DNA from: Paracoccaceae bacterium
GTDB taxonomy: Bacteria > Pseudomonadota > Alphaproteobacteria > Rhodobacterales > Rhodobacteraceae
Direction of reading: 5' to 3'
Assembly: GCA_027486345.1 (NCBI GenBank)
Contig: JAIXPH010000050.1
Coordinates: forward strand, 1-64,000
Length of the DNA: 64,000 nt
Position 1 is the first letter of the stretch. Every line of letters begins with the position of its first letter. A program made the translations under genes and the position numbers. The notes beneath the pieces are model-generated. The model had not been told where the DNA came from. It saw only the letters and a program-made list of their open reading frames with translations, and made no database searches. Below, in pieces: positions 11,681 through 61,447 of this stretch.

Positions 11681-11727
11681 TTTTTCGGCGGTTGGTGAGT
11701 GTCGGCACAAGCGCAACGCTCAGGATT

Positions 11728-11822
11728 GCCCCGATGCCCAAAGCATCGGGGCGCGGCCGTCCCGCCCCCCCGGGGCGGCCGCACATATATGTGCAACCAC
11801 TCCGGCGGGACGGCCGCGCCCC
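11728..11822 (-). repeat. Nested inverted-repeat element, copy I
   Basis: Three features are seen. (1) Hairpin GCCCCGATGC (11728-11737), loop CCAAA, GCATCGGGGC (11743-11752). (2) A 19-bp perfect stem between 11748-11766 and 11804-11822. (3) The internal palindrome GCACATATATGTGC (11781-11794). The hairpin and the long stem share the GGGGC at 11748-11752, so both cannot form fully at once. It lies 3' of the minus-strand stress protein gene and upstream of nfuA. Copies II and III are at 45881 and 61326. The rest of the 11608-11880 gap shows no gene. Confidence 0.85.
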
Positions 11823-11880
11823 TTGGCTGACGGTGAGCCAATAGCAATATGAGCACTTGGTCAGTCTACGGGCTTCCCCC

Positions 11881-12336
11881 TCAACTGATACTCTCCAGCC
11901 GCTCCTTCGACATATCCCCCGGCACGATGGTTACAGGGATCGGCAAGTTCCCCGAATTCCGGGTCATCGCCGTCACCAAGGGGCCGGGGCCGGATTTTTC
12001 CGTCGCCGCGCCAAGGACCAGGACGCCGATCTGCGGGTCTTCCTTCACCTGCGCCAGAATCTCGGTCACCGGGTCACCTTCGCGGATCACCAGCTCGGGG
12101 TTGATTCCCTTGCGGTCTCGCATCCATTTGGCAAAGACCTCGAAATGCGCTTCGATCCGCTCGCGCGCTTCGGCGCGCATCAGGTCGGCCACCCCCATCC
12201 AGTGCTGATATTCCTCGGGCGGGATGATCGACAGGATGGTGACCCCACCCCCGGTATGGGCCGCCCGAAGGGCAGCAAACCGCATCGCGTTCAGGCATTC
12301 CCGGCTGTCGTCGAGAACGACGAGAAACTTCCGCAT
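11881..12336 (-). CDS. Universal stress protein (UspA family)
   Basis: This 151-residue single-domain Usp protein begins RKFLVVLDDSRECLNAMRFA. The ATP-binding signature is partly visible as VLVLGAATEKSGPGPLVTAM, close to GxGxxG-9-GS but with Ala/Thr at some positions, so nucleotide binding is uncertain. Two ATGs are adjacent; the second (12336) has the better spacing to AAGGAG (7 bases). It stands alone. Usp proteins are usually induced in stationary phase or by stress, and no specific target can be named. Confidence 0.88.
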   Translation of the reverse strand: MRKFLVVLDDSRECLNAMRFAALRAAHTGGGVTILSIIPPEEYQHWMGVADLMRAEARERIEAHFEVFAKWMRDRKGINPELVIREGDPVTEILAQVKEDPQIGVLVLGAATEKSGPGPLVTAMTRNSGNLPIPVTIVPGDMSKERLESIS

Positions 12337-45842: not shown

Positions 45843-45880
45843 CAGCGAAAGAGTTACTGCTCGTCGCAACGATAGGGATT

Positions 45881-45974
45881 GCCCCGATGCCCAAAGCATC
45901 GGGGCGCGCCCGCACCGCCCCCACCGGGCGGGCGCACGTATACGTGCACCCACCCCGCGGTGCGTGCGCGCCCC
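45881..45974 (-). repeat. Nested inverted-repeat element, copy II
   Basis: Hairpin GCCCCGATGC (45881-45890), loop CCAAA, GCATCGGGGC (45896-45905) is unchanged from copy I. The long stem 45901-45918 with 45957-45974 has 17 of 18 pairs. Its inner part reads GCACCGC/GCGGTGC where copy I has GTCCCGC/GCGGGAC, so both sides changed together. The palindrome is GCACGTATACGTGC (45934-45947), again changed symmetrically. It lies between convergent DUF1989 and deoD, 72 bases past the deoD stop. No gene lies in 45843-46045. Confidence 0.85.
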
Positions 45975-46045
45975 TTGGCTGACCTAAGCTGCATTGCGGA
46001 AACGGCCCTTAACCCCTTGTTAAGTAAGTTGACAGCCGTCAACCC

Positions 46046-56844: not shown

Positions 56845-56918
56845 GCGGGCGTTGTGTAATGGTAAGACCCCTGCCTTCCAAGCAGGAGACGCGGGTTCGA
56901 TTCCCGCCGCCCGCTCCA
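56845..56918 (+). tRNA. tRNA-Gly (anticodon TCC), CCA encoded
   Basis: It folds as a complete cloverleaf. Acceptor stem GCGGGCG (56845-56851) pairs with CGCCCGC (56908-56914). The anticodon stem is CCTGC/GCAGG with loop CTTCCAA (anticodon TCC at 56877-56879). The T-arm is GCGGG-TTCGATT-CCCGC. The CCA end is encoded at 56916-56918. It reads GGA/GGG glycine codons. No direct repeat of the 3' end is seen downstream, so there is no sign of an integrated element. Confidence 0.97.
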
Positions 56919-61208: not shown

Positions 61209-61325
61209 GCGGTTATCCTCCATGATCCTTGGTTTGTCTCTAAGGGAGAGGGGGGAAAGGGGCAAGGGGGATGGGTAGACGCAAAGATTGCGGCCTTCTT
61301 CATGGCCCGCGCAACGACAAGGATG

Positions 61326-61420
61326 GCCCCGATGCCCAAAGCATCGGGGCGCGGCCGTCCCGCCCCGCCGGGGCGGCCGCACATATATGTGCAGCCACCC
61401 CGGCGGGACGACCGCGCCCC
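61326..61420 (-). repeat. Nested inverted-repeat element, copy III
   Basis: Hairpin GCCCCGATGC (61326-61335), loop CCAAA, GCATCGGGGC (61341-61350). The long stem 61346-61364 with 61402-61420 has one C-A mismatch that becomes a G-U pair on the minus strand. Palindrome GCACATATATGTGC at 61379-61392. An alternative stem GCGGCCG (61351-61357) with CGGCCGC (61374-61380) is also possible. It sits between fabA (stop 61448) and fabB (start 61208). The rest of the gap shows no gene. Confidence 0.85.
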
Positions 61421-61447
61421 TTGGCGAATGGCGCGGCGAATGGTGGT

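Follow-up and report, generated by a model that had tools for sequence, protein, structure and literature searches.

Palindromic intergenic repeats of the Rhodobacteraceae differ in subfamily and orientation at shared genomic addresses

The three palindromic elements in the 64,000-nucleotide window analysed here (contig JAIXPH010000050.1, positions 1–64,000) belong to a large family of intergenic repeats, about 100 letters long, in the Rhodobacteraceae. Related genomes share addresses of these repeats, and at a shared address the resident copies can differ in subfamily, in orientation or in both. The reading favoured here, with a probability of about 0.5, is that of a non-coding, REP/ERIC-like palindromic family whose resident copies, we infer, are overwritten by other copies.

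Copies I, II and III lie at 11728–11822, 45881–45974 and 61326–61420, with the layout given in a preliminary description of the window, which also quoted the arm and palindrome changes between copies correctly. Its left boundary does not hold: the conserved unit extends about 18 nt further left, over GCGCAACG-like letters. The hairpin pattern, with up to three mismatches, occurs three times in the window against 0.03 expected from shuffling. All six folds, of three copies on both strands, score better than every one of 200 dinucleotide shuffles (z between −5.35 and −7.72), and in every copy the minus strand of the window folds better than the plus strand. On this structured strand the segments run in the order a''–b–c–loop–c'–b'–a'–inner stem–a; hairpin A is formed by a' with a and the inner stem, the long stem by b with b', and the central palindrome by c with c' (Table 1). 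Minus-strand genes ending at 11881, 46046 and 61448 precede copies I, II and III, which follow them in the sense of the structured strand. At the gathering score, Rfam contains no family for the repeat in the window, and in three relatives nothing was found up to E 0.1; hits of copy I to MIR9666, asR3 and CcsR1 fall far below cut-off and were rejected. The sole Rfam match in the window at the gathering score is a tRNA gene at 56845–56915.

Table 1. Parts of the three repeat copies, in window coordinates
Feature	Position	Strand	Basis
Copy I, R1-matched stretch, subfamily T1	11710..11845	-	model R1, 140.7 bits
Copy I hairpin A (segments a + a')	11728..11752		sequence inspection/hairpin pattern
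Copy I long-stem arm b'	11753..11766		sequence/folding
Copy I central palindrome GCACATATATGTGC	11781..11794		sequence
Copy I long-stem arm b	11804..11817		sequence/folding
Copy I segment a'' (GCCCC), alternative partner of a'	11818..11822		sequence + covariation
Copy II, R1-matched stretch, subfamily T2	45863..45997	-	model R1, 135.6 bits
Copy II hairpin A	45881..45905		sequence/hairpin pattern
Copy II long-stem arm b'	45906..45918		sequence/folding
Copy II central palindrome GCACGTATACGTGC	45934..45947		sequence
Copy II long-stem arm b	45957..45969		sequence/folding
Copy II segment a''	45970..45974		sequence + covariation
Copy III, R1-matched stretch, subfamily T1	61308..61443	-	model R1, 130.4 bits
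Copy III hairpin A	61326..61350		sequence/hairpin pattern
Copy III long-stem arm b'	61351..61364		sequence/folding
Copy III central palindrome	61379..61392		sequence
Copy III long-stem arm b	61402..61415		sequence/folding
Copy III segment a''	61416..61420		sequence + covariation

Three paralogues alone cannot separate selection for pairing from one inherited subfamily difference, here that between T1 (copies I and III) and T2 (copy II). Covariation in a larger alignment, named beforehand as the point on which the claim of such selection might fail, is strong, and a covariance model, R1, was built from 41 copies. Alignment A4 holds 86 matches (85 distinct) from nine genomes and, having been fitted to R1, leans to the R1 structure; 96.6% of its 3045 cells pair, against 79.2% after shuffling. 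Both-sided changes occur in 25 of 37 pairs, and the covariation score of 0.411 (0.127 when shuffled) was reached by none of 500 shuffles, kinship among copies inflating these and all other pairing and covariation counts. A MAFFT alignment, A3, points in the same direction (97.4% against 90.5% shuffled). From it RNAalifold recovered the three helices unaided, together with four further pairs that were dropped; for the plus strand it gave a different and weaker structure (−46 against −72 kcal/mol). The larger alignments uphold the constraint on pairing; the change among the three window copies is a difference between subfamilies.

Segment a' pairs with a in 98.3% of cells (covariation 0.576 against 0.116) and with a'' in 96.2% (0.522 against 0.120), and most copies listed keep both partners through the a' variants GGGGC, GGGTG, GGGCG, GGTGC and GGGCC. 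An alternative to b:b', the helix c':b', reaches at least 11 contiguous pairs in 31 of 85 copies. Covariation of a single segment with both its partners implies conservation of two folds that exclude each other and cannot coexist in full; the repeat offers a clear case of such folds held in a non-coding element. The two forms have nearly equal energies (median difference 0.1 kcal/mol), as is expected where the same pairs move between forms, and hence this equality is not independent evidence.

The imperfect pairs are also distributed unequally between the strands. On the structured strand of A4, G·U occupies 259 cells and its mirror case, A·C, 14, though the cells are not independent; without three fixed wobble pairs the counts are 88 and 13, and by position, with all included, 18 and 6. 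These pairs mostly have their U in the 5' arm, by 41 to 12 in the long stem, by 119 to 6 in the central helix and by 11 to 0 in a'':a'. This bias is likely to reflect a constraint on a single-stranded form of the structured strand, either RNA or ssDNA; a cruciform-forming DNA site, as proposed earlier, is possible. The covariation of the arms might instead be mutational. Template switching in quasipalindromes, a mechanism known in principle, would copy one arm to the other without selection, and the arms here are long and close together. However, neither the one-strand bias nor covariation with two partners is expected from it, and imperfect pairs persist, with U·G in 80 of 82 cells at columns 126/130 and in 53 of 84 at columns 47/77. 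A mutational origin is judged improbable.

The window's own genome (G000) comprises 4.08 Mb in 65 contigs. Copy I as query gave 49 matches there, many of them self-matches of the palindrome on the opposite strand. R1 gave 77, of which 28 overlap a stronger match on the opposite strand; the places left, at least 49 in all (at least 42 at 40 bits or more and 7 below 40 bits), may be an undercount, the first look having scored 150 of 4981 candidates. R1 matches 10 of 19 genomes of the genus (G007 weakly), and a second model, R2, matches 71 of 149 genomes of the bacterial family, the own genome included. A sample of 142 genomes from across the class yields three matches: besides the own genome, one from its family and one from a different family. 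Eleven fetched loci match at 61–76 bits (alignments listed for eight) and repeat the helix order in different letters. Plasmids of Phaeobacter, Leisingera, Tritonibacter, Ruegeria and Sulfitobacter carry the repeat (64 records). Copy I itself found no match among plasmids and phages, a wider relative of the repeat found none among phages, and the hairpin pattern does not occur in viral contigs. No description of the repeat was found in the literature searched for Rhodobacteraceae relatives and for repeats generally, a search outside which most subscription journals lie. In one genome, model matches are crowded together (G012:C71:2858-3321 and G012:C4:35950-42412). Separately, four loci (L086, L029, L225 and L223) hold short derivatives with hairpin A but without much of the inner part.

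The copies stand in spacers, mostly adjoining the 3' ends of genes. They are not scattered at random inside genes: in none of 168 copies from ten genomes does the overlap with a called gene exceed 60 nt, the calls coming from a codon-usage caller trained on this window. Plasmid matches touch annotated features at a hypothetical protein in H17–H25 and at xdhC in H29; in three such matches inspected the overlap is about 12 nt. Where both neighbours are called, 60 of 152 copies occupy convergent spacers, 77 tandem and 15 divergent ones. Compared with the window's own 39 spacers of at least 60 bp (5, 23 and 11, a small baseline from one window), convergent spacers are enriched (Fisher p 0.001) and divergent ones depleted (p 0.007). 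Within tandem spacers 41 copies are sense and 36 antisense (p 0.65); the family has no orientation bias. The structured 3'-UTR RNA envisaged in the preliminary description therefore agrees with the position of the copies but not with their orientation, and that reading is unsupported.

A rival reading is that of an element acting at 3' ends in both directions, whose hairpins on either strand would stop or shield the transcripts of neighbouring genes, so that selection would fill the address and ignore orientation and subfamily. Besides the enrichment of convergent and depletion of divergent spacers, this idea is favoured by the short distance to stop codons (medians of 48 nt and 22 nt on the two sides) and by the fact that both strands of the window copies out-fold all shuffles. 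It leaves unexplained the one-strand G·U bias and the likeness of copies within a genome, and at three sites (L065, L072 and L250) a separate terminator-like hairpin followed by a T run was seen by eye. As a full explanation it is a tentative possibility.

Evidence bearing on overwriting comes in part from comparison of G000 with two further genomes, G010 and G016. Among copies fetched with R1, one flank matches that of a G000 copy in 18 of 24 cases in G010 and 20 of 25 in G016, and both flanks match in 13 and 15, respectively; the remaining copies may be private or distant, or may sit where a contig ends. Loci found by the exact hairpin pattern have a matching flank beside the element in 18 of 18 cases in G016 and 12 of 15 in G010, on one side only in 6 of these 30; at L113 in G010 about 2.6 kb separates the element from the matching flank. 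Orientation is kept in 54 of 95 two-flank pairs and changed in 41, and 15 of the 33 shared loci that these pairs represent contain an inversion, with the reservation that several of the compared genomes are MAGs or drafts in which the subfamily of a copy, and less so its orientation, could be misassembled.

The contents of an address change as well. The site of copy II holds T2 in the own genome and T1 in G010; near copy III, T1 in the own genome corresponds to T2 in G010, with extra sequence between element and gene in the latter. At the site of copy I both genomes hold T1, and G016 holds a T3/T1 chimera; in more distant species the spacers at sites I and II have no element. Eight species have an element at a site beside a LysR-type-like regulator gene, judged by eye; three arm types and both orientations occur there. 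For 59 main-type copies of the three genomes, identity is 0.856 in 23 orthologous pairs and 0.836 in 1123 other between-genome pairs (permutation p 0.08); 565 within-genome pairs average 0.852. The subfamily is the same in 10 of the 23 orthologous pairs and 342 of the 1123 others (one-sided p 0.13). Since orthologues share a subfamily somewhat more often, some memory of the address may remain, and turnover is not shown to be complete. Because subfamilies swap at shared addresses, the difference among the three window copies that had been described as compensatory is in the main one between subfamilies, which overwriting in place has probably spread on a constrained fold.

A resident population whose members overwrite one another is the simplest account. 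A resident copy would be replaced by a copy from elsewhere in the genome, that is, by gene conversion, in part over short tracts, and the initial event might be a break in the palindrome. With its palindromic arms the donor could pair in either direction, and the fold of one strand would belong to a single-stranded form used during copying; addresses may also stay filled through a slight advantage of the copy as a two-way hairpin at 3' ends. Three chimeric copies (C46:47017 and C15:5344 in the own genome, L051 in G016) and a half element, found at one site in G010 and G016 with a different arm type in each, possibly represent partial conversion tracts. Several points weigh against overwriting. 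Of the proposed steps, the one explained least well is the inversion of a copy at its own site. The ends that would ease inversion, GCGCAACG and its inverse, stand on both sides in just 20 of 162 copies, GCGCAACG being present at the left end in 100, while 33 have its inverse at the right (at most one mismatch). In eight plasmids of Phaeobacter inhibens the copy beside rfbB holds one orientation and nearly one core, with hairpin A in two main forms. Hot-spot insertion could also mimic part of the pattern.

Such insertion might be the work of a target-specific mobile repeat, entering the same 3' spacers repeatedly and independently by means of an unidentified transposase. Both orientations at one address, and a left-end motif common to 100 of 162 copies, are in its favour. 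The high sharing of addresses and the half element with differing arms argue against it. The marks of a MITE would be terminal inverted repeats, for which the 20 copies above have matching ends on both sides, a target-site duplication and an autonomous partner. A loose left-end pattern gave 90 matches against 14 for a reversed control, and those inspected, at known copies, revealed no autonomous element sharing these ends; no target-site duplication was seen by eye, with no clean empty site for comparison. Repeated insertion is considered rather unlikely. It is also doubtful, if conceivable, that the repeat is a selfish palindrome free of any transposase, which persists because its resident copies are overwritten: its two-state, one-strand hairpin would provoke breakage or copying, and repair from another copy would rewrite the site in either orientation. 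If true, this would constitute a drive resembling homing, acting on non-coding repeats whose addresses are fixed. It is an old question whether host benefit, transposition or gene conversion maintains bacterial palindromic repeats. The question is now testable: address, orientation and sequence change separately in this family, and each can be followed through many species.

The closest kind of known element is the REP/ERIC-like repeat, with no known transposase. ERIC/IRU of enterobacteria is an intergenic imperfect palindrome of about 127 bp that has no transposase of its own; likened by description only, it is similar in style to the present repeat and differs in host group. Homogenisation of REP sequences by gene conversion is an idea reportedly advanced by Higgins in 1988; here orthologous sites are compared and inversions are included.

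A REPIN-like mobile palindrome, another of the early suggestions, agrees with the general style of a dispersed intergenic palindrome in tens of copies, but lacks its partner. A search for Y1_Tnp (RAYT), positive in 5 of 14 control genomes, gave nothing above cut-off in the 19 genus genomes, among which drafts may miss genes; one weak hit below cut-off lies in G009, a genome with no R1 match. GTAG occurs in the 5' stretch of just 33 of 162 copies. As in the REPIN–RAYT systems described in the available text of PMC3116915 and PMC8049555, a non-autonomous hairpin population inhabits the genome; unlike those systems, the present repeat has no RAYT found with it, is not composed of two inverted REPs, and differs in subfamily and orientation at shared addresses. 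That it is a REPIN moved by a RAYT transposase is very improbable indeed.

GTAG- and CGTC-tagged REPs, according to the main text of PMC3733652, are 20–40 bp long with an unpaired GTAG or CGTC tag, lie between genes, mainly convergent or unidirectional ones, and have G–T pairs in their stems; the CGTC class has no dedicated transposase. The present repeat is likewise an intergenic palindrome of convergent and tandem spacers with G–T pairs and no known transposase, but is at least about 100 nt long, has three helices and carries no constant tag. Nor does it fit the CGTC type, defined by an 8–9 bp stem opening with AT pairs, a CGTC tag and a CCA tail: its stems are GC-rich and longer, and 30 of 162 copies have CGTC in their 5' stretch. 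The names Rhodobacter, Paracoccus, Ruegeria, Roseobacter and Rhodobacterales do not occur in the main text of PMC3733652, species-listing figures excluded.

Two smaller features accompany some copies. An insertion of about a dozen nucleotides, similar to GAGTCAGA, lies in the c'–b' loop of a subset of copies in several species: L083 (G000:C60:18322), L255, L257, L258 and L260 (G010), L241 and L246 (G008), and L239 (G014). A second short palindrome, GTAGGGTGCGCA...TGCGCACCCTAC, which starts with GTAG like some REP repeats in a genus where no Y1_Tnp reaches cut-off, recurs beside copies in several genomes (L002, L010, L031, L206, L210 and L338).
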